Below, in pieces: positions 42,696 to 64,000 of a stretch of DNA of 64,000 nucleotides. This DNA comes from Cafeteria roenbergensis. Taxonomy: Eukaryota > Sar > Bigyra > Bicosoecida > Cafeteriaceae. Where the stretch lies: NCBI GenBank assembly GCA_008330645.1, contig VLTN01000029.1, positions 365,021 through 429,020 on the forward strand, written 5' to 3'. The position numbers were made by a program, and so were the translations under genes. Below the pieces are notes generated by a model, which did no database searches, was not told the origin of the DNA, and saw only the letters and a program-made list of their open reading frames with translations. Within the stretch, counting starts at the first letter, position 1. Every line of letters starts with the position of its first letter.

Positions 42696-45695
42696 TCACG
42701 ACCGCTTGGAGAGCGGCACCCGGAGGGAGGCCCATGCCTGGCCCAGAACGGCGAGCCATGCAGCAGCCTCCTCCTCGGACTCGGCCTGCAGCAGCCACCG
42801 GCGCTGCTTTGTGTCGACTGCAAAGACGAAGTCGCGACCGTCCGCCTCCTCACGCGCAACGGCGTCAACTCGAAGGCACTCTGAGAGCGGCACGGCGCCA
42901 GCCGGCGCCCCTGCAGCCTCCTTGTGGTAAACCAGCGATCGGTGCCGCAGCACCAGCCAGCGGCGCCGCCACGTGCGGTTCAGGTCGCCACGCTTCCACA
43001 CCCAGCCTTCCATGGAGAGCGCGTGCGCGCGCTCATCCTCGGTCAGCTGGCGGCTGGAGGAGGCAGAGACTGTGCCACCAACTGCGTCTGGCGCAGCCGT
43101 TGCGGAAGGCGACCTCGCAGTTCCAGCAGCTGCGGCTGCAGCTCGCGGAGGCGCAGCCGGAAAGCTCGTAGGCCCGTCGGCCACCCGCTCCCGTCCCATT
43201 CCAGCCCTGTAGTCCGCCCGAGCAAGTTCGGCAGCGGCGGCTGCCTTGGACCCCGGCGCCAGGTGAACCACCAGCCGAAATCGGCGGGGCAGCCATGTGG
43301 CCGTGCCAGGCCGGGCCGACGGCGCCAGGCCGCGCAGGCGCTCCTTGCGAGCGTCCATGTCCAGCCCCCGCGGCGTGCGCACCACCAGTGTGCTGGACCG
43401 CTCCATCTGCCGCAGCATTCCAGTGTGAAGCGTCGTGCGGTACACCTCGACCTGTCGCCCAATCGCTGCAGTGGGCCCGCTGTCGGCCGCGGCGAAGAGC
43501 CGCAGCGTCACGTCGCCGGACACCACCACGCCGGGCAGGCCTGCGCCGGCCCGCGCAGCCCAGGCTCGCAGGTCGAACACAACCGCGCGGCCAGGGCCGC
43601 TCGCTCCCGGGCTGCCGGCGCTCGGGCCTGTCCCGAGACGGTCCACTTGCCGCAGCAAGTCCGACCCCGACACGCTTGCCGCGCCTCGGCGGCCAGCCTC
43701 TGGCGCCAGAGGCTCCGAGGCGGCTGGTCTCCCACTCTCGGCGCGCACTCGCGCCCCCGCTTGGCCGGGAACACCGACACCGGGGCTGCTACCATCGAGG
43801 CGCTCGGCGGCGCCAGCAGCCGCTTCTGCAGGCTTGGCGGCAGCGGCGCCTCCAGCCGCGGCGCCACCAGGTGCAGCTTCGACAGGCGCAGCGGGAGGCC
43901 CGGGCGCAGCAGCTAGAACCGGGTCGCTGGGCTCCCGGGAGGACGGGCCAGCGGCCGGCGCGCGGCGACCGGCAGCACGGGCGGCAGCCTTGGCAGCCAT
44001 TGCTTCAGCCACCGCAGTTGCGGCATTGATCACGCCCGCCGCCCCGGTTCGGACAACAGGGCCTGCGTGGGGGCCGTCCCAGAGTGTTGAGAAGAGTGCG
44101 CGTCCGCGGGCGGACTCGTGAGGCGTCTGCTCGATGACCAGGCACAGGCGCGCTTCGGACGATGCTCCGCCGCCGAGGGACGCCGGGAGGGTCGGCGGCA
44201 CCGGCATCACCACCTGGGTGATGGTAAACGGCGGCGACTCCGGCGGAACGTATCTCCGAAGCCAGTCCAGCGCCTCCCCGGTGACAGCTTCGGCCTCGGC
44301 ACCTGGCCTGACAAGCAGCATGGGCCACCGCTGCATCTCCGGCGCGAACCGCAGCCCGCTGGGCCCCACGCTGGCCAGCCACGCGGCCGGTTCCATCCGA
44401 TCGTCCGCCACGGCATCCGCCTCCGCGCCCTCGTGCGGCCTGGCATCGGGCACGGGCAGCACCGCGCCGCCGAAGGAGTCGCCGGCCAGGGACGCGGCCG
44501 ACGCCGCCGCCAGCCACTCGTCCAGCGCAGCATCCTCGTCGGCGTCGGCGGCCGCACGGTCGGTGTCGGCAGCCGTGCTGCCGGCTCCAGGGCGCGCCGC
44601 GCCTTCCGCCGCTGCTGCCGCTGCGTCGGGCTCTGCTGTGCCCGCGGCGGGAGGCACCGCCGCCGGCGACGGCGCAGCCGCCGCCGTCGTCGGGCTGCTG
44701 CCGCTGTCGCTGCCACCGCCAGCAGGGGGTGCTTCGCTGGAAGCCTCGCCTCCCGCCCCTGCTGCAGCGGCGGACTCAGCGGCGCGACCCGCGACCCGCC
44801 GCCGCCACACGGCCCGGGCGACCGCACGCCAGCACAGGGCAGCCACCCCGGCCACAGACCGGGCCTGTCCCGGGTAGGTCACACCCTCGCCGCGGCGCGC
44901 CCAGAAGAGGCGCAGCGCAGCACGGGCCGCCACGGTGGGCGGCCGCAGCACCAGCATCCCTGGCGCAACGCCTGGTCCAGCCTGCGGGCCCGCGAGCTTG
45001 GAGAGCGCCTCGGAGCTCGCTGCCCCTGGCGGCAGCGTGAGAGCGGGAAGGGCCCACGGGGGCCCCCTGGGAAACGCCTCGGAGGTGGTGCCGTCGCCGG
45101 GCACGCGGCCGTTGGCCCACAGCTCCGGGAGCGCGGCGCCCTTCTCCACGTCGGCGCGGCCGGGTGTGCCCTTGTCCTCGTGCAGCGCGCCAGCCATCGC
45201 GTCAAGCCCCGTGGCGAGCTCCGGGCCGACGAGGCGGTCGATGGGGGCGAGGGAAAACCACTGCCGCATCAGCAGCGCGGCGGCGATAACCGTGCCAGTG
45301 CGGCCCTTGCCCGCTTGGCAGTGAACCACGACGACATTGGCCGGGTCGGCTCGGAGCCAGCGGTCCAGCGAGATGGTGATGGTCCACAGCAGCTCCCAGG
45401 GGGGCGGGTGGTGGTCGGGGAAGCCGACGTTCATGACGCGATGGTCGAACTCGGACTCGTCGTACGGTCGCTCGGACAGGTTCAGGAGGAGGTAGTTTCC
45501 GGCATGCCGCCCGCGCAGGAAGCGCGCGACGTCCGCCGCGCTGTTGCGGTACGCGGCCTCGATGCCTGTGGACGGATAGCCCATCGCCACGATGCGGGAG
45601 GTGATGTACGTGAGATCCAGGTCGAAGCCGCTGTCCGCGTCCACCAAGCGACGGCGACGGCCGGAGGTCAGGCCCCGGATGAATGCGAGCGCCAT
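42696..45695 (-). CDS. PTEN: PTEN-family phosphatase with C-terminal PH domain
   Basis: Single minus-strand exon, 999 residues from MALAFIRGLTSGRRRRL (a start 51 nt upstream is possible, but this one aligns with PTEN). The N-terminus has the basic lipid-binding patch and GFDLDLTYITSRIVAMGYPS. The phosphatase domain follows, with FPDHHPPPWELL (the WPD-like loop) and the active-site loop HCQAGKGRTG (Cys near residue 124). The two basic residues around the catalytic Cys typical of PTEN are partly kept (Gln replaces the first Lys). A ~400-residue Ala-rich insert follows. Then comes a C2 tensin-like part (VVSGDVTLRLFAAAD ... PRRFRLVVHLAPGSK). Residues ~890-995 form a PH domain: MEGWVWKRGDLNRTWRRRWL with the closing AAWLAVLGQAW helix. 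It would dephosphorylate PtdIns(3,4,5)P3 at membranes. Confidence 0.88.
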   Translation of the reverse strand: MALAFIRGLTSGRRRRLVDADSGFDLDLTYITSRIVAMGYPSTGIEAAYRNSAADVARFLRGRHAGNYLLLNLSERPYDESEFDHRVMNVGFPDHHPPPWELLWTITISLDRWLRADPANVVVVHCQAGKGRTGTVIAAALLMRQWFSLAPIDRLVGPELATGLDAMAGALHEDKGTPGRADVEKGAALPELWANGRVPGDGTTSEAFPRGPPWALPALTLPPGAASSEALSKLAGPQAGPGVAPGMLVLRPPTVAARAALRLFWARRGEGVTYPGQARSVAGVAALCWRAVARAVWRRRVAGRAAESAAAAGAGGEASSEAPPAGGGSDSGSSPTTAAAAPSPAAVPPAAGTAEPDAAAAAAEGAARPGAGSTAADTDRAAADADEDAALDEWLAAASAASLAGDSFGGAVLPVPDARPHEGAEADAVADDRMEPAAWLASVGPSGLRFAPEMQRWPMLLVRPGAEAEAVTGEALDWLRRYVPPESPPFTITQVVMPVPPTLPASLGGGASSEARLCLVIEQTPHESARGRALFSTLWDGPHAGPVVRTGAAGVINAATAVAEAMAAKAAARAAGRRAPAAGPSSREPSDPVLAAAPGPPAAPVEAAPGGAAAGGAAAAKPAEAAAGAAERLDGSSPGVGVPGQAGARVRAESGRPAASEPLAPEAGRRGAASVSGSDLLRQVDRLGTGPSAGSPGASGPGRAVVFDLRAWAARAGAGLPGVVVSGDVTLRLFAAADSGPTAAIGRQVEVYRTTLHTGMLRQMERSSTLVVRTPRGLDMDARKERLRGLAPSARPGTATWLPRRFRLVVHLAPGSKAAAAAELARADYRAGMGRERVADGPTSFPAAPPRAAAAAAGTARSPSATAAPDAVGGTVSASSSRQLTEDERAHALSMEGWVWKRGDLNRTWRRRWLVLRHRSLVYHKEAAGAPAGAVPLSECLRVDAVAREEADGRDFVFAVDTKQRRWLLQAESEEEAAAWLAVLGQAWASLRVPLSKRS

Positions 45696-46099
45696 GGCGT
45701 GCAGCGGGAGGAGCTTGCGGCTTCCTTGAAGACTGGTCGCGGGCAACAGATTGCGCCAGCAACAGCTTCAGCGCGCTCGCAGCGGCGACGCCCCGTCAGG
45801 CCGGGCGCTGCTGGGCCGAGGGCAGGGTCTGCGACGCAGAGAACGCAGCTCCAAGCGCCTCGAGGGCGCTTGCGGGAGGGCGCCGGGCCGGGGGCACGGG
45901 AGCTGAAGGTGCCGAGCCTGCTCGTCCTCAACTTGGCGGCGCGCGAGTTGGGACAACCCGCGCTCGCGGCCAACTATGCCGCCTGAGTTCCGGCCAGAAC
46001 TGAGCAGCGTCGGGCAGAGCCGCAGCCCCAGGAAGCGGAATTGCGGTCTTCGGCGAGGACAGGCCACCCCCTCGTCCGAGGTCCGGAGCTGGCATCGCG
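45696..46099. promoter_or_regulatory. Shared upstream region of PTEN and TRM112 genes
   Basis: About 404 bp between the divergent start codons of the PTEN-like gene (minus) and TRM112 (plus). No defined promoter element recognised. Confidence 0.4.
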
Positions 46100-48578: not shown

Positions 48579-50303
48579 TCACTTCCGCTTGCGGCGGGGC
48601 ACGTGCATGGCACCGACGCCGCGAACGGGGGTGCTGGAGGTGACTGGCGACGGGGCGCTGCCGGCCCCGTTGACGCTGCCGTCGTCGATGGAGATGTCCA
48701 TCGCCACATAGTCACCGATGGCTTTGGTGGGCGCCTCCTCCGGGGCGGGCGCGCTGCCCGTGATGCGCCGCACGAATGCGGCAGCTGTGTCGTAGAAGCG
48801 GTAGATGACGAGGCCGCCGAGGATAACGACGAGGCCGATGCCCGTGTAGGGGGTGATGGTGGACCTGTTGGCGATGGGCACGAAGGGCAGCGCGAAGAAG
48901 AAGGACGCCATCGGGACCATGGTGGTGAGGCACAGCCACAGCAGGTTGGAGCCGCCCATCTTGAGGATCACGATGATGAGCACGTTGTACCCCAGGTTGG
49001 CCACGCAGTAGGCGGTCACCAGGTAGGGCGCCGAGGAGCAGTCGTCGTTGGCGGCGGTGTTGAGCGTCGCCAGGCAGCGGAAGCCGCCCCAGATGTTCTG
49101 CCACAAATCGTCGGCCGGGATGCCCTCGATGAGGCCGGAGGGGTACAGGAGGATGAACGACGCGATGAACTGGTAGAGCGCCACCTGCCCGTTCATGTGC
49201 CACGCGTCGCAGTCCGCGTCGCCGAGGTTGAGCTCCTTGTACACGCCTGCGCAAACGGAGAGGAAGGGGCGCGCGGGGGCGGGATGGGGCGATTGGGAAC
49301 CGATGCGGCGGGCGGAGAGAGCCGGCGAACCGCACTTCAACCAGGCACGCAGTGCTGCGACGCGCTGTCGGCATGCCGCAGGCCGGACCAGGCGCCGTCC
49401 GCAGGCGCTGGCTGAGCAGTGCGGCCAGCATCACCCAGCCCCGCAGCAAACGCGCCGGGGGGAGGCCGGGCTGCTGAGTGCGTGGCTGTGGGCGTGAGCG
49501 GGGGCGGCCAGGTGCGGGCCCGAAGCAACGCTCACTGGAAAGGGTCATCGGGACGCACGAGGCCACGAGGACCAGCGCCCAGACAATGAGGCCCCCAGGT
49601 CCCGAAGAGGTGCTGTCCGAGTCCGGCTGCGCGAGCTTGGGCGCAAGCACGATTGCGATGCCGATGAGGACGGCCACGGCGCCGACGTAGTTGAACCACT
49701 TGTAGCGCTTCTTGGTGAAGAGGCGCGTGAAAATCATCGACACGGGGATGGCCGACTGCAGCAGCAGCGTCACCAGCGTGCCGTTGGACACGAACGCGAC
49801 CGCAATCGACTGGAGGATGCCGGCCATGCTGTCGAGGCCGCCCATGATGGCCCACTTGTACCAGGGGATGGCCTTCTCGTCGTCCGTCAGCTTGGACCAG
49901 TTGAAGTATACGTAGCCCCAAGACGTGGGGAGGTACACAAACGTGGTAAGGAGGTTGGTGAAGAGCGCGTACTGCGAGGGCGCGGAAGCGGGTGGGCTCG
50001 GCGGCGGCAGGACTGGGCTTGGCTGGCTGGCGGGAAAAGCCGTGGCGGCGCTGCGAGTTGCCACCATCCAGCGCGCGCGCGAGCGCTCACGTTGTGCATA
50101 GGCCCGAACTGGAGCACGCGGAGGATGTTGTTGCAGAGGCCCACGGCGACCATAATCCCGAACACGATGAGCAGCGCGCGGTCGGAGCCGGCCTTGTCGC
50201 TGGGCTCTTCCTCCACGTCAACCTCGGGGGCCTGGAGCTCCTCGCCGAGCAGCAGCGCCTCGCCTGATGCATCGCCGACCTGTTTGCCTGAGCTGCGTGC
50301 CAT
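48579..50303 (-). CDS. CRT-like transporter (drug/metabolite transporter superfamily)
   Basis: Three exons on the minus strand: 50303-50091, 49971-49536 and 49246-48579. The introns are 119 and 289 bp (donors GTGAGC, acceptors CTCGCAG and GCGCAG). The product is 438 residues, close to the ~400-450 of the family. An acidic cytosolic N-terminus precedes about ten helices. Helix 1 is ALLIVFGIMVAVGLCNNILR. Exon 2 has YALFTNLLTTFVYLPTSWGY, then GILQSIAVAFVSNGTLVTLL with LLQSAIPVSM, the CRT-like/nucleotide-sugar transporter box. The split Ser at the second junction leads into SVYKELNLGDADCDAWHMNG, the conserved extracellular loop, whose Cys residues (with CSSAP further on) likely form disulfides. 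Relatives export amino acids, peptides or glutathione from acidic vacuoles or plastids. Confidence 0.9.
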
Positions 50304-50635: not shown

Positions 50636-53562
50636 TCAGAGCTGCAACGCCGCCGACTTGGACCGCAGGAGCGAGGCCTGGAGTGCAGCGGCGGGCGGGC
50701 CAGCAACCCCGACGAGGGCCCCGCCGGAGCAGGCTTCGCGAGCAGGCGCGCTCGGCGCCTGGGGTCCGCGCTTGGCGGCCGCGCGGGTCGCCAGCACGAG
50801 GGGCGAGAGCACCTCGTTGGGCATGGGCGGCGGGGTGTTTCTCCCCGCAGGCGCACCCGTCGCGCCTGCACCGGCTGCTTGCTTCGCCACGGCCCTGCCG
50901 CTCCCCTGGGAGGGGCTGGCGGCGCCGCCTCGCTCCGCCTCCCGCACTCGGTCAAACTCCGCCGCGGCATGCGCCCCCCTGCGCTCGTTGACGCATAGCA
51001 GGAACATCGGCCAGCCGATGGCCACCTCCACCGCCACCGTGATGACCACGATGGCGCGGTAGTGCTGCTCGCCCATGGCCTGGACGGCCGCCCCGATCGC
51101 GAGCGGCCCGATCCACGAGGTCCCCTTTTGCGTCAGCTCGTACAGCGCCCCGATTCGTGCCTGCTCGTCCCTCGGGGTCATGGACACCAGCAGTGACCGC
51201 GTGAACGAGGCGATGGCTCCGAGCTGCACTCCAGCGATGACCGTGAGCGCGTAGAGCTCCCAGCGCGAGGCCATGAACGCCACCCAGCCAAGGACGGCCG
51301 AGAGGACCAGGATCGCCACGTGCAAGGCCGCCGTGCCGCTCAGAATCCCGGCTCGGACGAGAAGGCGCCAGCCGGTGGCGCCCCCCGCCGCAGTCACCAT
51401 GCCCAGAACAGCAATCGCCGCCAGCTCCAGGGACGACACCCCGAGCTCGTCCGCAACGAGCAGCGCGGCGGAGGACGTGGCAGTCGACGCTGCGTCGCTC
51501 AGAAACATCCACGATACCAGGTACCACAGCAGGTCCTGTCCCGGCAGCCGCCACGTCAGCGCCAGCGCTTCCGCCTGGTCTGCCAGCCCTGTGGTCGCCC
51601 CAAACCGCGCCACCCGCACTGCCAGGCACGGCAAGCGCGCCGCCCTGCGACAGGAGCAGCCGCCCCTGGCGCCCGCCAGCTGTTCCGGTGGCCGGGGCCG
51701 GTCCGGGCCAGAGCAGCAGCACCCGCACGCGCCGGACAGGCAGCCAGCGGGTCGGGGACCGCAGCCGAAGCCGTGCACTACCCACGCCGGGAGGGGCGGC
51801 CCGGGGCGCTGGATGGTGAGGTGCGGGAAAGTGACGAGGAGCGCGCCGCAAGCCCAGAAGGCGCCGATGCCGACGATGGGCAGCATCTGTTCCAGCCAGT
51901 AGGACGCTCCCAGGGTGTCGGCCGCGCCAACGGTCGGGCCGGTGGGATCGGACGCGTTGACTGGCACGACCGCAGCGTCGGCTGCCGAGCCGACAAGCAT
52001 GCCGGGCAGCAGGAAGCACGCGGCCGCCAGCAATGCGTAGACCAGCATGCCCATGTAGCCGACCGCCGTGCCTCGGGCGGCCAGCTCGTGGGCCGCGGCG
52101 ATGGCGGCGGCTTCGCTGTCCGGCCCGCCTCCAGCCGGCTGCTGCGCGGCTTGGGGCCGAGGCGCTGTCCCGGCAGCCTCTGCTGGGGCGTCGCTGGCAA
52201 GGCTTGGCCACGTCGGGACCTGCTCGTCCGGCCGGCGAGCGGGCGAGCCGCCTGCACGACGGGGGGCGGAACCGGTTGTCTCATCGCCCGGATGTGGCTC
52301 GCCCGGCGTGGATGTGTCCCGCAGCAGCGCGCCGTACATGAGACCCGCCGCGCGGTTCGCCACGCGCATTACGACGACGGAGAGCGCGGCGAGCCACAGC
52401 ATGGACGGGTGCTGCACTGCAAGGAAGAGCAGCATGGCGGCCGCACCGGCCAGGGAGCAAGGCCGCATCAGGCGCACGCGAAGGTCAGAGTACTCGGCTG
52501 CGGACGCGGGACGGTTGCGGGTTCGAGGCGGGGTTGGGACGGTTGCGGGTTCGAGGCGGGGTTGGGACGGTTGCGGGTTCGAGGCGGGGTTGGGACGGTT
52601 GCGGCGGCGGTCGCCGTCGCAGTCGCGGTTGCAGGTGCGTCCGCGGGGCGCTCTGTGGGCGGCTGCGGGGACAGCGGGCGCGGCGCTGGCAAGCCAAGTC
52701 CTTGCCGAGTGCGCCCCCGCGAAGAGCAGCAGGCCAGGGTGCGCGGCCAGTGGCATGCGTCTCTCGCAATCAGCCGACGCGGTGCTCTGGGCTCGCAGCG
52801 CGGGGGTGTGGTCGGGACATCTCGAGGGGAACACCGACCGGATGCACCGGCCGCGCGCAGAGGCAGGCAGCTGCACGGGCTGCCTCGCTCACCGATGGGG
52901 CCGATGGCGAGAAACGCGGCGATGCTGACCCCGGTGGACACGGATCCCAGGAACGACCAGAGCGCTCGCGGCGCCTGGGAGCCGGCAGCGGAGGAGAGGG
53001 CCGTGATTGCCTGGGGGAGGAACAGCGAAGTGCCCACCACTGACACCGAGTCCCAGGCGTCGTACATTACCCACGCCTCAGCCTGCAGCGCCCGAGACAG
53101 CGGCACCTGGCCGAGGGCGGGGTGGGCCACGACGGGGTCGAGGGTCGCGGCGGTGGGGAACAGGGCGGCCGCCCCGGCAGCGGACCTCAGCCGCTCCCCG
53201 CATCGGGACTGGCCCGCGGGCACAAACGGGGGCGGGCGGCGGACAGGGGATCCGCCATCTGCCTCTCCCGGCGCAGCCGGCGCTCGCGCTGCGCCTGCCT
53301 CGGCTGGGGGCGCTGCGTCCACCGCTGCCGCTGACTGCGCCCCAGCTGGCCGCCGCTCGCTGCCAACGGGCGGCCCCGCCTTCGAAGCAGGCGGGTACGC
53401 CACCGCGTGCGGCCCGCAGGGCCTCCCGCAGTCGCAAAGCAGCAGGAACCCGCACCGGCCGCAGCAAGGGGCGCCCGCGTCCCAAGCAGGGCGTGCAGGC
53501 CGCCCACCTGCTCGGACCCCGGGAGCGCCCATGGCCGGCGTCCGCGCAGCGCTTCCAACCAC
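50636..53562 (-). CDS. MFS transporter, UMF1/ATG22-like
   Basis: Three exons on the minus strand: 53562-52893, 52497-51786 and 51644-50636. Introns are 395 bp (donor GTGAGC) and about 141 bp (best-fit donor GTGGGT, acceptor GTCGCAG; this second junction is less certain). The product is ~796 residues. Exon 1 ends with EAWVMYDAWDSVSVVGTSLF, the W-x-x-YD-x-x-x-S start of the ATG22/UMF1 family, and FLAIGPI. Exon 2 continues AEYSDLRVRLM, a helical block and a Gly/Ala-rich cytosolic loop. Exon 3 has DLLWYLVSWMFLSDAASTAT and RIGALYELTQKGTSWIGPL, the closing family motif. ATG22-type carriers release amino acids from the vacuole; UMF1 proteins are less defined. The N-terminal 130 residues are Pro/Ala/Gly rich, and the start is uncertain. 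Confidence 0.8.
52508..52604. repeat. 28-bp minisatellite in an intron
   Basis: Three full 28-bp copies and one partial copy (unit begins GGGACGGTTGCGGGTTCGAG) lie at 52508, 52536, 52564 and 52592, inside the first intron of the UMF1-like gene. The copies are identical, so length variation between strains is likely. Confidence 0.9.
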
Positions 53563-58196: not shown

Positions 58197-58694
58197 GACG
58201 CCAGCCGCAACGGGCAGCTGAAAACGCGTGCACGTTGCGAGCACGCGAATTCGTAACCGCGTGGAGTGATGTTCGAACGCTCGCGAAACGAAGCTGCCCA
58301 GAACCAGCGGAGCAGCCTCTTGGAGCAATGCAAGAGAGCGCGAGAAACCATGCAAAACCAATGCAAAGCGCATGGACGTGCGACGGCGATTGATCCCCCA
58401 CCCCCAGTGTTCGTGCAGCCAATCAGGCTCTGCTCTCCCATGTGCTGCGCGGCCGCCGTCCCGCGTGTTGCGGAAGCCAAGTCAGCTAGCGCTGCTACAT
58501 TGCGAACGCCGGCCTTTCAACGAGCACTCGAGGTGCTCGGCATCTTTGGGGGAGGGACGAAAAACCAAACAAACCGTGCCACATGCGCTCGATTCTCGGC
58601 CTCAGCAAAACCAAGTCCGTCCTGATGAACATCGTTGGGGGGGGTCGAAAACTCGCGTCACCATACCACACACTCGATTCACAGACTCATCAAG

Positions 58695-58985
58695 CACCTG
58701 CTGACCTGTGTGGACGTTGAGAGGCCGCATTCTGGTGAAGGACTGATGTTGACCTAAATGGCTAAAGCTCGGCTCGGCGAGCAGCACACGGGGTCGCCCG
58801 AGGGACGGGAGGGAGGGTCAAACGATCGAATCAAGCACACACACACACAACTCGGGGCGCGTGCGTGCAGCGGGTACGGGTGCGGCCGGTGAGCCCCACG
58901 CGGGCTCGAACCGGTGTGCCCGCCCCAGAGGGCGAGTTTGCGAGCGGGTCGGATGGCCCGCGTCTGCCGTGGGGCAGAGCGGGCC
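58695..58985 (-). repeat. ~290-bp dispersed repeat, copy A (inverted)
   Basis: Read on the minus strand, this segment matches 59418-59709. Identity is near complete from CACACCGGTTCGAGCCCGC to the outer end ACAGGTCAGCA and weaker over the first ~70 bp. It contains a perfect RNA polymerase III B-box (GGTTCGAGCCC on the minus strand, 58902-58912), a (TG)n tract and a conserved TTTAGCCATTTAGGTCAACA stretch. The B-box and size suggest a tRNA-derived SINE-like element, but I could not fold a tRNA nor define an A-box. Confidence 0.6.
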
Positions 58986-59417
58986 CGGGGTGGTCTCGGT
59001 GTCAGGGGGCGGCGGCCGCACAACTCGAGGGGACAGCAGCACAAGATTTACATCACAAACAGGTGCTGTGCGGCTCGCTCGCAGCAGTAGCCTTTGATGT
59101 CACTGTCAGTGGCGGCGGGGATGAGGGCTTGATACATCAAAGCGCCCAGTTAAATTGCAGCCAAGCGAAGGGCCGGGCGACTTGCGACACGCGTTTGTCG
59201 GAATGTCTGATATGCCGAATGCATGCACGTGAGGAGCGCGGGCTACACGAGGCAACGAGCAAAACCAGACTGGCAAAACCTACTTTCCCAGCGTCGTTTG
59301 GGGCAGTCGAACTCGCGTGTACGCGCATTGCACACTCGAATCACAGCCTCAAAAAGTGGTGATGCAAATTTTGCGGTGCATCCTTAATGCCGCCGTCCGC
59401 TGGTTGCGGCAACTGCT

Positions 59418-59709
59418 TTGAGCCCGCACTGCCCCACGATAAAAGGCGGGCCATTAGACCCCCTCGGAAGCTCGCTCAGCAGGCCCAGCACACCGGTTCG
59501 AGCCCGCGTGGGGCTCACCGGCCGCACCCGTACCCGCTGCACGCACGCGCCCCGAGTTGTGTGTGTGTGTGCTTGATTCGATCGTTTGACCCTCCCTCCC
59601 GTCCCTCGGGCGACCCCGCGTGCTGCTCGCCGCGCCGAACTTTAGCCATTTAGGTCAACATCAGTCCTTCACCAGAATGCGGCCTCTCAACGTCCAAACA
59701 GGTCAGCAT
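59418..59709 (+). repeat. ~290-bp dispersed repeat, copy B
   Basis: Plus-strand copy of the element at 58695-58985. It ends immediately before unique sequence near 59710, about 90 bp upstream of the ankyrin gene start. The B-box is at 59495-59505. The two copies are inverted and about 430 bp apart. Confidence 0.6.
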
Positions 59710-59799: not shown

Positions 59800-62700
59800 A
59801 TGGCCACCCCTGACATGGATGAACGTGCAATGGCCAGCGCGCTCTGGGAGGCGGCGAAGGCCGGGAACACAGCCGAGGCATGCAGGCTCCTCGATGCGGG
59901 CGCGCCGGTCGACTGGAAAAACGATGCCGACGTGAGCTCTGGGACTGTAGGCACGCTCCCCACTCGTTACCGAGGGAATGGGGACCGATGCAACCAGCCC
60001 GGTGTCTTTATTTCACCACTTGAGCTGCGGCGCCACGGACAGCGCGGGAAACGTGGGGTCCGTCGACCGTGGTGGCGATCGAGGCGGTGCAAAGACGTGC
60101 TGGGAGCCGCTGGCTGGCTGACGTGAGGTAGCGCCGTTCGCAAGACGTGTAGACTGTGATTGTTGAGGGCACGAGACCTCGCAGAATGGCGCTGCAGCGC
60201 TCATGGTGGCAGCGATGCGCGGCCACGAGGACACGGTGGAGCTGCTGCTGGACCGGGGCGCCGACATGGAGGCCAAGGACAGCGTGGGTGCGGCGGCCAC
60301 GCGTTGCGGCGCGACGGGCCGCGCCGTGCGACACGGGCGGGCTGGGCGGCGATGGCGATGACGATGACGCGTCAGAACGCCGTTCTCCTGTGGCGGGCCG
60401 GCTTGCGAGGCGGCGCTGGCCGGGGGAAGACGTGGGGAGGGGAGCGATGGTGCGACGAGGTTCGGTGACACGCGGGCATGCGGCGTCGCAGTATGGTGCT
60501 ACGGCGCTTGTTGTGATGGCACACGCTGGTCACACAGACATGGTGGAGCTGCTGCTGGACCGGGGCGCCGACCTGGAGGCCAAGGACCGCGTGAGTGCGG
60601 CGGCCGTGTGTGGCTGCGCGACGGGCCGCGCCAGGCGTCACGGGCGCGCCGGGCGGCGATGGCGATGGCGATGACACGTCGGAGCGCCGTGCCCATGCGG
60701 CGGGCCGGCTTGCGAGGCGGCTCTGGCTGGGGGGAGGACGTCAGTAGGGGAGCGATGGTGCGACGCGGTGCAGTGACTCGCGGGCTTGCAACATCGCAGA
60801 GTGGCACCACGGCGCTTATTGAGGCCATATCTCGTGGCCACAGGGACACGGTGGAGCTGCTGCTGGACCGGGGCGCCGACCTGGAGGCCAAGAACCGCGT
60901 GAGTGCGGCGGCCGTTTGCGGCTGCGCGACGGGCCGCGCCAGGCGTCACGGGCGCGCCGGGCGGCGATGGCGATGGCGATGACACGTCGGAGCGCTGTGC
61001 CCATGCGGCGGGCCGGCTTGCGAGGCGGCGCTGGCCGGGGCACGTCGGCAGGGGAGCGATGGTGCGACGAGGTTCGGTGATACGCGGGGACGCGGCGTCG
61101 CAGTATGGTGCTACGGCGCTTGTTGAGGCTGCATCCTGTGGCCACAGGGACACGGTGGAGCTGCTGCTGGACCGGGGCGCTGACCTGGAGGCCAAGAACC
61201 GCGTGAGTGCGGCGGCCGTGTGCGATGCTGCGCGACGGGCCGCGTCGGGCGTCACGGGCGGGCGTGTGGGACGGTGATGGGGATGTCGTGTCGGGGCGTC
61301 GTGCTCCTGTGGCGGGCCGGCTTGCGAGGCGGCGCTGGCCGGGGGACGTCGGCAGGGGAGTGATGGTGCGACGAGGTTCGGTGATACGCGGGGACGCGGC
61401 GTCGCAGGATGGTGCTACGGCGCTTGCTGAGGCTGCATTTCGTGGCCACAGGGACATGGTGGAGCTTCTGCTGGACCGGGGCGCCGACCTCGAGGCCAAG
61501 GACAGCGTGAGTGCGGCGGCCGTGTGTTGCGCCGCGACGGGGCGCGCCAGGCGTCACGGGCGGGCGGGCCAGGCGGCGATGGCGATGGCGATGACTCGTC
61601 GGAGCGCCGTGCCCATGCGGCGGGCCGGCTTGCGAGACGGCGCTGGCCGGGGGAAGTACGTCGGTAGGTCATCGATGGCGCGACGCGGTGCAGTGACCCG
61701 CGGGCTTGCAACATCGCAGAGTGGCACCACGGCGCTTGTTGAGGCTGCATTTCGTGGCCACAGGGACACGGTGGAGCTGCTGCTGGACCGGGGCGCCGAC
61801 CTGGAGGCCAAGAACCGCGTGAGCGCGGCGGCCGTGTGTCGCGCCGCGACGGGGCGCGCCAGGCGTCACGTGCGGGCGGGCCGGGCGGCGATGGCGATGG
61901 CGATGACGCGTCAGAACGCCGTGCCCATGCGGCGGGCCGGCTTGCGAGACGGCGCTGGCCGGGGGAAGTACGTCGGTAGGTCATCGATGGCGCGACGCGG
62001 TGCAGTGACCCGCGGGCTTGCAACATCGCAGAGTGGCACCACGGCGCTTGTTGAGGCTGCATTTCGTGGCCACAGGGACACGGTGGAGCTGCTGCTGGAC
62101 CGGGGCGCCGACCTGGAGGCCAAGAACCGCGTGAGCGCGGCGGCCGTGTGTTGCGCCGCGACGGGGCGCGCCAGGCGTCACGGGCGGGCGGGCCAGGCGG
62201 CGGTTGCGATGGTGCGGCGGAGCGCCTTGCTCCTGTGGCGGGCCGGCGTGTGCGGCGGCGCTGGCCGGGGGACGTTGGCAGGGGAGTGATGGTGCGACAA
62301 CGTGCGGCGACACGCGGGCACGCGTCGTCGCAGCATGGTGCTACGGCGCTTGCTCTAGCCGTACTCAAAGGCAAAACGGACACGGTGGAGCTGCTGCTGG
62401 ACCGGGGCGCCGACCTGGAGGCCAAGGACCGCGTGAGTGCGGCGGCTGTGTGTGGCTGCGCGACGGGGCGCGCCAGGCGTCATGTGCGGGCGCACCGGGC
62501 GGCGATGGCGATGGCGATGGTGCGTCGGAGCGCCTTGCTCCTGCGGCGGGCCGGCGTGTGAGGCGGCGGTTGCCGGGGAGCGACGTCAGTAGGTCAGCGA
62601 TGCTGCGACGAGATGCGGTGACCCGCGGGCACGTGGCGTCGCAGTATGGTGCTACGGCGCTTGTTTGGGCTGCATCCGGTGGCTACAAGGACACGGTGGA

Positions 62701-63983
62701 GCTTCTGCTGGACCGGGGCGCCGACCTCGAGGCCAAGAACAGCGTAAGTGCGGCGGCCATGTGTGGCTGCGCGACGGGCCGCGCCAGGCGTCACGGGCGG
62801 GTGGCCGAGGAGCGGCGATGGCGGTGACGCGTCGGGGCGTCGTGCTCCTGTGGCGGGCCGGCATGGTAGGCGGGGCTGGCGGGGGCTGGGGCGTCCGGAG
62901 GGGAGCGATGCTGCGACAAACTTCGGTGACACGCGGGGACGCGGCGTCGCAGGATGGTGCTACGGCGCTTGTTGAGGCTGTATCTCGTGGCTACAAGGAA
63001 ATGATGGAGCTTCTGCTGGACCGGGCCGCGGACCTGGAGGCCAAGGACCGCGTGAGTGCGGCGGCCATGTGTGGCTGCGCGACGGGGCGCGCCAGGCGTC
63101 ACGGGCGGGCGGGCCAGGCGGCGATGGCGATGGCGATGTCGCGTCGGAGCGCTGTGCCCGTGCGGCGGGCCGGCTTGCGAGGCGGCTCTGGCTGGGGGGA
63201 GGACGTCAGTAGGGGAGCGATGCTGCGACGCGGTGCAGTGACCCGCGGGCACGTGGCGTCGCAGGATGGTGCTACGGCGCTTGTTTGGGCTGCATCCGGT
63301 GGCTACAAGGACACGGTGGAGCTTCTGCTGGACCGGGGCGCCGACCTCGAGGCCAAGAACCGCGTGAGTGCGGCGGCCGTGTGTGGCTGCGCGACGGGGC
63401 GCGCCAGGCGTCACGGGCGGGCGGGCCAGGCGGCGATGGCGATGGCGATGTCGCGTCGGAGCGCTGTGCCCGTGCGGCGGGCCGGCTTGCGAGGCGGCTC
63501 TGGCTGGGGGGAGGACGTCAGTAGGGGAGCGATGCTGCGACGCGGTGCAGTGACCCGCGGGCACGTGGCGTCGCAGTATGGTGCTACGGCGCTTGTTTGG
63601 GCTGCATCCGGTGGCTACAAGGACACGGTGGAGCTTCTGCTGGACCGGGGCGCCGACCTCGAGGCCAAGGACAGCGTAAGTGCGGCGGCCATGTGTGGCG
63701 GCGCGACGGGCCGCGCCAGGCGTCACGGGCGGGTGGCCGAGGAGCGGCGATGGCGATGACGCGTCGGGGCATCGTGCTCCTGTGGCGGGCCGGCATGGTA
63801 GGCGGGGCTGGCGGGGGCTGGGGCGTCCGGAGGGGAGCGATGCTGCGACAAACTTCGGTGACACGCAGGGACGCGGCGTCGCAGTATGGTGAAACGGCGC
63901 TTGTTGAGGCTGTATCCTGTGGCTACAAGGATACGGTGGAGCTTCTGCTGGACCGGGGCGCGGACCTGGAGGCCAAGAACAAT
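59800..63983 (+). CDS. Ankyrin-repeat protein, one repeat per exon (3' end beyond window)
   Basis: Exon 1, 59800-59931, encodes MATPDMDERAMASALWEAAK and a half-ankyrin, NTAEACRLLDAGAPVDWKND. Thirteen ankyrin exons of exactly 99 bp follow, all phase 0. They start at 60185, 60492, 60800, 61104, 61408, 61720, 62032, 62334, 62645, 62953, 63265, 63577 and 63885. Each encodes one 33-residue repeat of the type [Y/D/S]GATALVEAA-x-RGHRDTV then ELLLDRGADLEAK[D/N][R/S]. Acceptors are (G/A)TCGCAG. Donors are GTGAGT or GTGAGC, with GTGGGT once and GTAAGT twice. The last visible exon ends with donor GTGATA. Introns measure 203-213 bp and are strongly alike. At least 473 residues are encoded before the edge. 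The product is likely a cytosolic protein-binding solenoid; partners are unknown. Reading through introns is possible only where intron length is 213, so splicing fits better. Confidence 0.8.
60185..63983 (+). repeat. Tandem array of 13 exon-plus-intron units
   Basis: Unit spacing runs 307, 308, 304, 304, 312, 312, 302, 311, 308, 312, 312 and 308 bp. Both the 99-bp exon and the intron belong to the unit. All introns share a GTGCGGCGGCC start, a GCGATGGCGATG middle, a GGCGGGCCGGC core and a GACGC...GCGTCGCAG end. Neighbouring units near 61.5-62.1 kb and 63.05-63.57 kb are almost identical, indicating very recent duplications of one unit. Two exon types are present: those starting YGAT/DGAT/HGAT and those starting SGTT (60800, 61720, 62032). 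Confidence 0.9.
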
Positions 63984-64000
63984 GTGATAATGCAGCGGCC

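Follow-up and report, generated by a model that had tools for sequence, protein, structure and literature searches.

How does a gene come to consist of one exon repeated many times over, and what could such a gene do for the cell that carries it? These questions are raised by a 64,000-nt stretch (hereafter the window) of a genome that we take to be that of Cafeteria burkhardae strain BVI, a marine unicellular predator. The right end of the window coincides with the end of contig C29 (429020) and carries an ankyrin gene made of a row of 99-bp exons. Judged by its sequence, the window gene is one of about 46 copies, some of which may be alleles, of an ankyrin-solenoid gene family in this species. 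The account that we favour, and regard as likely when taken as a whole, is that this family forms a fast-evolving recognition repertoire near contig ends, with units that recombine and a binding surface under selection. Throughout, contig labels (C10, C29, C55, and others) denote contigs of the one assembly analyzed (36.3 Mb, 167 contigs), and locus labels (L011–L032, L056, and L057) denote the stretches read from them. The named relatives of its HSP90 include oomycetes at 69–70% and one sequence labelled Vigna at 65%.

Anatomy of the window gene and its family

Thirteen exons stand in a row in the window, where the GC content in 2-kb steps ranges from 61 to 79%. Each is 99 bp long, open, and in phase 0, has GCAG directly before it and GT directly after it, and holds one ankyrin repeat. 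The gene is composed of the following parts.

59800..59931, plus strand: exon 1, start codon and 44-aa N-terminal cap (MATPDMDERAMASALWEAAKAGNTAEACRLLDAGAPVDWKNDAD), placed from the sequence and from a similar exon upstream of other arrays
59932..60184, plus strand: intron 1 (GTGAGC...GCAG), 253 bp, placed from the sequence
60185..60283, plus strand: ankyrin exon 1 of 13, 99 bp, phase 0
60492..60590, plus strand: ankyrin exon 2
60800..60898, plus strand: ankyrin exon 3
61104..61202, plus strand: ankyrin exon 4
61408..61506, plus strand: ankyrin exon 5
61720..61818, plus strand: ankyrin exon 6, identical to exon 7
62032..62130, plus strand: ankyrin exon 7, identical to exon 6; the introns preceding exons 6 and 7 share 96.7% identity
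62334..62432, plus strand: ankyrin exon 8
62645..62743, plus strand: ankyrin exon 9, 99% identical to exon 12; the introns following exons 9 and 12 share 98.1%
62953..63051, plus strand: ankyrin exon 10
63265..63363, plus strand: ankyrin exon 11; the introns following exons 10 and 11 share 99.5% identity
63577..63675, plus strand: ankyrin exon 12
63885..63983, plus strand: ankyrin exon 13, probably the last repeat, with a terminal-type donor next to it
63984..64000, plus strand: putative start of the terminal intron (GTGATAATGCAGCGGCC), by comparison with relatives

The 12 introns between the ankyrin exons measure, in order, 208, 209, 205, 205, 213, 213, 203, 212, 209, 213, 213, and 209 bp. 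Tandem Repeats Finder describes the region as a single array (60221–63980, period 312, 12.2 copies), and Pfam recognizes 13 Ank stretches (PF00023) in the joined exons, with E = 3e-129 for Ank_2. The mean pairwise identity is 84.4% among the exons and 84.1% among the introns of this array. The initial annotation had claimed thirteen 99-bp phase-0 exons encoding one 33-residue ankyrin repeat each, which the exon coordinates and the Pfam matches bear out, and introns of 203–213 bp nearly as conserved as the exons, which agrees with the two identities; the 5′ exon with its N-cap is an addition to that description, as are the gene family, its location by contig ends, the retroelement, and the hypervariable binding surface treated below. 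The final donor (GTGATAATGCAGCGGCC) resembles the terminal-intron donors of related arrays (GTGATATTGCAGACAC, GTGAAGTTGTAGCGGC), and in other arrays such a terminal intron is followed by a C-cap exon, for example AGMNALDICRNNACADVLRSAERLQRWHRRRHLTLWA in C55. As this donor is of the terminal type, 13 is probably the complete repeat count of the window gene, with the C-cap exon probably lying beyond the contig end.

A search of the genome with one exon–intron unit gave 350 matches, which fall on 22 contigs among the matches listed. Exon 1 gave 90 matches, in 46 places at E < 1e-10 (a cut chosen after the 90 matches had been seen; some places are perhaps alleles), and the C-cap peptide gave 94 places with E up to 0.001. 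Compared with the 46 exon-1 places, 25 arrays on 22 loci (L011–L032) were read, with 4 to 32 repeats per array. They contain 283 distinct units, after 7 duplicates were left out where L031 overlaps L019, and 272 of these are an open 99-bp exon with AG before and GT after it. Two of the 272, on C10 and C129, come from an adjacent gene; they were dropped from the later rate analyses and kept in the unit, intron-length, and earlier similarity counts. Among the 11 units that depart from the rule, nine have no GT at the expected place (five shifted by +1 base, two by −1, and two with no site near), one has no acceptor, and one is cut by a contig end. With the same unit type in 25 arrays and 272 of 283 units obeying the 99-bp phase-0 rule, the window array is not a product of chance.

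The splice sites of the 272 units are mostly of one kind (donor GTGAGT in 143, acceptor GCAG in 260), and the donors GTTTGA, GTTTGC, GTAGGG, and GTAGGA are also present among array units. On L019 (C15:594000-603999), a block of adjacent units has the donor GTTTGA or GTTTGC in place of GTGAGT. By pattern search, an N-cap-like exon lies upstream of 18 of the 25 arrays, and the genome search adds matches near several others; a C-cap exon was found at 9 array ends (10 pattern matches, one of them judged spurious). More distant ankyrin relatives lie in the interior of C78 (L056, 96000-105000) and C63 (L057, 179000-188500). In these relatives, 22 of 25 units are 99 bp, the spacing is mostly 329–354 bp, the introns mostly 230–255 bp, the donors mostly GTCAGC, and each cluster has about 4–6 repeats.

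We infer that the array exons are spliced. The lengths of 236 introns show no frame bias (82/79/75 for the three remainders modulo 3), and in-frame read-through is possible in 51 of them. The absence of a frame bias and the small number of introns that can be read through match the prediction for real introns, and the proposal that the introns serve as coding sequence is rejected on the same two grounds. In the joined model of the C55 gene, Pfam finds only ankyrin families above the cut-offs, with 14 Ank stretches and no NACHT or NB-ARC domain; ROC-COR GTPase domains are found neither in this model nor in that of the window gene. PF03496 rises above its cut-off in the window model, yet without a stretch of its own, and we take it to be a chance hit of the repeats. 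The nearest structures in PDB by sequence are ankyrins and designed ankyrin repeat proteins (DARPins). On the Kyte-Doolittle scale, no 19-mer of the joined C55 model exceeds 1.14 in hydrophobicity, and given this and the restriction to ankyrin families, the simplest prediction for the product is an intracellular all-ankyrin solenoid binder with caps at both ends.

Growth of the arrays and variation of the binding surface

Each array tends to favour a unit length of its own, such as 306 bp in 19 of the 23 spacings of C74, 318 bp in C20 and C55 (8 spacings each), 299 bp in C10 and C129, 280 bp in C68, 289 bp in C136, and a 278-bp block in C15. Identity among introns is 84.6% within arrays and 74.2% between them, and among exons 81.5 and 75.5%, respectively. 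For 84% of the 236 introns (198), the nearest relative is found in the same array, most commonly in the next unit (79 of those 198); for exons, this share is 64%. The array-specific lengths and the local similarity of introns fit repeated duplication of exon–intron units, and we regard the anatomy together with unit duplication as near certain. Introner elements were considered as a source of the introns and rejected, as an intron searched alone matched ankyrin arrays in 53 of 53 cases among the matches listed (40 of 192 candidate places scored).

The modular growth by exon–intron units that was first proposed stands in this respect, but the copying of whole units is not the sole process. In the window, the distance between exons tracks that between their preceding introns (r = 0.51, p = 0.0004) and not that between their following introns (r = 0.05, p = 0.37). 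Across arrays, exons agree with their following introns at p < 0.05 in 6 of the 13 arrays tested. The expectation that exons and introns share one topology, checked here by distances, is thus borne out only in part. The overall exon–intron correlation of 0.67–0.68 mixes between-array with within-array differences. Over all arrays, exons differ by 10.2% in the 120 pairs of units whose introns differ by 3% or less, and introns differ by 7.1% in the 41 pairs whose exons differ by no more than 3 bases (3.03%). Near-identical exons with diverged introns, and the reverse, indicate that recombination has separated exons from introns after duplication, and the partly decoupled distances rule out whole-unit copying as the only process. 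An earlier statement that introns are seven times more conserved than exons was withdrawn, as it came from pairs chosen for alike introns, while the pairs with alike exons have introns 7.1% apart.

Four-gamete conflicts are frequent at variable exon sites (116 of 218 site pairs in C55, for example), as expected from recombination or from recurrent change. No exon sequence is identical between two arrays, except in the near-identical pair C10 (L021) and C129 (L020), which share 97.2% identity along 10 kb. In C129, the first eight intact exons correspond in order to exons of C10 with 98–100% identity, after which the order of units differs. These two arrays could be alleles, or the small contig could be misassembled; their difference in the last units is only a hint of variation in arrays between individuals.

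The variation among exons is concentrated at particular residues. In the 23 arrays with at least four exons, the six of the 33 positions with the highest mean within-array residue difference are 1, 8, 12, 11, 33, and 3. By pooled replacement rate, the same six are within the top seven, position 7 ranking above position 3. By an alignment on the framework D-x-x-G-x-T-P-L, positions 33, 1, 3, 8, 11, and 12 correspond to positions 2, 3, 5, 10, 13, and 14 in the numbering of an engineered ankyrin library. These positions of the library were randomized and are described as facing outward on one surface (PMC3308923). The six most variable positions of the family are the six randomized there; the chance of this is 9e-7 (1 in 1.1 million) for a set fixed beforehand, a value that is too small because the library was found after the variable positions were known. 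The standard DARPin set has position 31 in place of position 8 in the numbering used here. It has five of its six positions in common with the variable ones (p = 0.0004), and the sixth, position 31, is not variable.

Rates were compared in 21 arrays, those with fewer than four aligned introns (C2, C31, C51, and the first C68 array) being left out. Nucleotide divergence is 0.406 at the six codons, 0.152 in introns, and 0.129 in the rest of the exon; for the whole exon it is 0.179 vs 0.152 in introns, the exon being higher in 15 of the 21 arrays (p = 0.03). Replacement divergence at the six codons reaches 0.423, compared with 0.185 at the four-fold sites of the framework and 0.152 in introns, and is higher than either in all 21 arrays (p = 1e-6 each), with some of the excess built in, as the six codons were picked as variable in the same data. 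The codons of the standard DARPin set are also above the introns in 21 of 21 arrays (0.362 vs 0.152). Replacement divergence in the framework is low (0.103), and 207 distinct six-residue surfaces occur among 270 repeats. Because unconstrained sites should not outpace neutral ones, the replacement excess is read as diversifying selection on the binding surface. We consider such selection very likely, with the test made by counting methods and not by codon-model site tests, and with the surface taken from papers and not from a model of this protein.

Several points speak against a selected surface, including the late discovery of the library and the lack of variability at position 31 mentioned above. 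Such positions are variable in ankyrins generally, so that the library match by itself shows no more than where variation is allowed, and the case for selection comes from the excess over the neutral yardsticks. Synonymous change at the six codons is also raised (0.354), which suggests that the replacement of whole codons or short tracts contributes and blurs the selection test. The four-fold sites of the framework exceed the introns in 17 of 21 arrays; introns may be homogenized separately and hence be a low yardstick. In the window array, the exon as a whole shows no excess over the introns (0.153 vs 0.164), and the most variable positions there include 14 and 15.

Contig ends and the adjoining retroelement

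Of the 40 genes on contigs of 60 kb or longer, 30 are found no more than 20 kb from a contig end, and every one of these 30 is oriented toward it. When contigs of all sizes are counted, 36 of 46 genes are this close to an end and 34 of the 36 face it; the sequence within 20 kb of ends makes up at most about 18% of the assembly. That left and right ends agree in orientation favours real chromosome ends over random assembly breaks, and the array-bearing contig ends are probably chromosome ends. Four copies of the telomere repeat TTAGGG in a row were absent; other telomere repeats were not searched. Against a terminal location, ten of the 40 genes are interior, and some of the contig ends may be breaks in the assembly.

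An element, here called E, whose long matches are mostly 94–99% identical, follows many of the arrays read on their downstream side. Its open frame on L026 has 1308 residues and contains a reverse transcriptase (PF00078/RVT_1, E = 3e-20); a motif hints at a restriction-like endonuclease. From this structure, we infer that E belongs to the non-long-terminal-repeat (non-LTR) retroelements. Its copies are 5′-truncated on the side away from the array, stand in head-to-tail stacks, and have a common 3′ end on the array side, and some arrays stop where E starts inside a unit. Stacks were seen at L026:4614-9054, L022:4692-7729, L030:4975-8325, L024:5854-10000, and other contig ends. A genome search for E, in which 40 of 266 candidate places were scored, gave 28 copies on contigs of known length; none of the 28 is more than 20 kb from an end, and in 26 the 3′ end faces inward, counting two copies (one of them reversed) on the 40-kb contig C107, where nearness to an end means little. 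Telomeric retrotransposons of the HeT-A/TART kind form head-to-tail arrays of 5′-truncated copies with the 3′ end toward the centromere. The stacks of E resemble this pattern, with 5′-truncated copies head to tail and the 3′ end mostly inward, at contig ends that are probably, but not certainly, chromosome ends.

In the window, the flank upstream of the ankyrin gene holds the sole trace of E and two copies of a short repeat.

58621..58698, minus strand: 3′-end relict of E, 78 bp, 94% identical
58698..59061, no strand assigned: copy of a short repeat of ~360 bp, 88%; copies also lie beside other ankyrin arrays
59422..59708, no strand assigned: second copy of the ~360-bp repeat, 83%, inverted, with a tRNA B-box-like GGTTCGAGCCC at 59495

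Together, the two copies of the ~360-bp repeat form a 263-nt inverted repeat just upstream of the gene. We take the repeat to resemble a short interspersed nuclear element by its B-box-like motif. Farther upstream, the window has a perfect 28-bp tandem repeat of 3.5 copies (52508–52604). On the minus strand, a CRT-like transporter adjoins an Atg22-like transporter (Pfam; 48712–50067 and 50636–52876), and a long open frame (42696–45746) has matches to tyrosine/dual-specificity phosphatases and a C-terminal PH domain (Pfam).

Mechanism, alternatives, and related systems

In the mechanism that we propose, a complete gene would consist of an N-cap exon, a series of 99-bp phase-0 ankyrin exons, and a C-cap exon. 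Because every exon is 99 bp and in phase 0, a unit could be gained, lost, or swapped without damage to the frame. Unequal crossing-over would add or drop exon–intron units with the frame unbroken, the co-copied introns giving it long stretches of homology, and recombination, probably including gene conversion, would reassort exons against introns. Selection would preserve the framework and favour new residues at the binding surface, and the resulting repertoire would recognize changing partners inside the cell, for example viral or prey molecules. On the sequence evidence, we see the chances of such a recognition role against changing partners as about even, and giant virus, virophage, or prey molecules as the partners are guesses. 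Two further observations count against this mechanism. A search of public data with exon 1 found no transcript or spliced protein and gave only two matches, an unspliced open frame on an ENA contig and a distant ankyrin protein. In addition, some units are frameshifted and some arrays are cut by E.

Frameshifted or truncated arrays would also be expected under neutral tandem-repeat turnover, in which the array behaves like a satellite, varies only where the structure tolerates it, and is homogenized by unequal crossing-over, with no role in recognition. Array-specific unit lengths and local similarity are as expected from such turnover, the variable positions are structurally tolerant, and outside the six codons, exons are slightly less diverged than introns (0.129 vs 0.152). 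Tolerance alone, however, should not lift replacement at the six codons above the level of both introns and four-fold sites, as is seen in all 21 arrays, and 272 of 283 units have kept their exact length without a stop; we therefore consider neutral turnover unlikely. A slightly better case, though still a doubtful one, can be made for alternative exon use, by which one locus would yield many isoforms from subsets of its ankyrin exons. All exons are symmetric and in phase 0, which would keep any subset in frame, and exon shuffling with splice variants is described for brown-algal ROCO genes (PMC11378527), but the splice sites of the arrays are rather uniform, though variant donors occur.

Retroelement E could itself be the driver, inserting into arrays at chromosome ends or healing broken ones, as has been proposed for the REP element and the leucine-rich repeat (LRR) units of Tetrahymena (PMC6564038). 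E adjoins the 3′ side of arrays, cuts into units, stacks in truncated copies, and, in the scored part of the search, lies near ends in 28 of 28 copies with the 3′ end inward in 26. This agrees with such a role, yet the 99-bp architecture is shared by the interior arrays of C78 and C63 (with flanks not searched for E), E may just prefer to insert at ends, and nothing shows that ankyrin units were moved by it. We hold E as the driver to be possible and about as doubtful as alternative exon use. Somatic or clonal variation, in which arrays would recombine during culture growth and give each cell line a repertoire of its own, would account for the great similarity of adjacent units and for the difference of C10 and C129 toward the array end; as this pair could equally reflect two alleles, a recent duplication, or faulty assembly, this explanation seems improbable.

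Ankyrin repeat exons of 99 bp also occur in human genes, where exon borders follow the ankyrin repeats and the exons and introns are old and diverged; recent arrays are not known among them. Closer likenesses are found in microbial eukaryotes and algae. In a Tetrahymena LRR family, exons of exactly 90 bp with phase-2 introns stand in tandem, the introns being ~257 bp in T. thermophila units, the youngest genes are pericentromeric and subtelomeric, and a LINE-like (long interspersed nuclear element) element lies beside the units (2019, PMC6564038). These arrays share with the ankyrin arrays one fixed exon length in tandem, a single intron phase, and an adjacent non-LTR retroelement. They differ in being LRR arrays of a ciliate with 90-bp exons in phase 2, so that the exon is out of codon register, whereas the exons here are ankyrin, 99 bp, and phase 0. 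The words ankyrin, hypervariable, and positive selection have no occurrence in the main text of that paper.

Brown-algal ROCO genes carry one LRR per 72-bp phase-2 exon, are under diversifying selection at residues of the concave face, and give rise to splice variants (Teng et al. 2024, PMC11378527, citing Zambounis et al. 2012). One repeat per exon, uniform length and phase, surface diversification, and a stramenopile host are common to both systems, while the ROCO genes differ in the LRR, the 72-bp length, phase 2, the ROC-COR GTPase domains, and the alternative splicing that has been shown for them; telomere-ward arrays are not mentioned in sections 11 and 15 of that paper. The ankyrin repeats of fungal NLRs have high internal conservation, for which concerted evolution was suggested, vary in number between isolates, and contain five positively selected positions that lie on the concave surface with one exception (Dyrka et al. 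2014, PMC4986451). They are like the present family in having internally conserved ankyrin repeats with diversifying change on the concave surface (here by counting methods), and unlike it in that the repeats belong to NACHT/NB-ARC receptors, domains that the joined C55 model lacks. Neither the word exon nor intron occurs in the main text of PMC4986451. Engineered ankyrin libraries (PMC3308923; DARPins, PMC8683736) resemble the family in the constant framework, the two caps, and the variable surface residues, and differ in being man-made. The Cafeteria ankyrin family shares traits with the Tetrahymena, brown-algal, and fungal systems and is a member of none, as it departs from each in repeat type, exon length, phase, or partner domains. 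Among the matches listed in literature searches on Cafeteria ankyrins, 99-bp tandem ankyrin exons, and subtelomeric protist ankyrin families, no title or abstract describes this family; ankyrin does not occur in the main text of two Cafeteria genome papers and occurs once in a transcriptome paper (PMC7852580), which also names public RNA reads of strain E4-10 (PRJEB36247).

The copying of fixed-size exons for repeat receptors is already known in ciliates and brown algae; to these the present family adds a stramenopile that lives freely and feeds on bacteria, and in which the repeat (ankyrin), the exon length, and the phase are all different. In its boldest form, which we regard as possible but doubtful, Cafeteria burkhardae, a host of a giant virus and virophages, would have an ankyrin recognition system of its own. 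Its arrays would lie near chromosome ends, with array ends remodelled by a chromosome-end retroelement, and would generate new binding surfaces by exon-sized recombination on a constant framework. Such a system would be the natural equivalent of a DARPin library and would differ from strain to strain or even from cell to cell. If the account that we favour is right, the same solution arose several times, and, as each exon is one complete repeat, the gain or loss of a unit would swap one whole binding module. Because the introns are copied together with the exons, they provide a yardstick inside the same array, by which selection on the binding surface becomes directly measurable. With a culturable organism, four published strain genomes, those of E4-10P, BVI, Cflag, and RCC970-E3, public RNA reads, and a known giant virus and virophages, the existence of a diversifying recognition repertoire in a unicellular eukaryote becomes testable.

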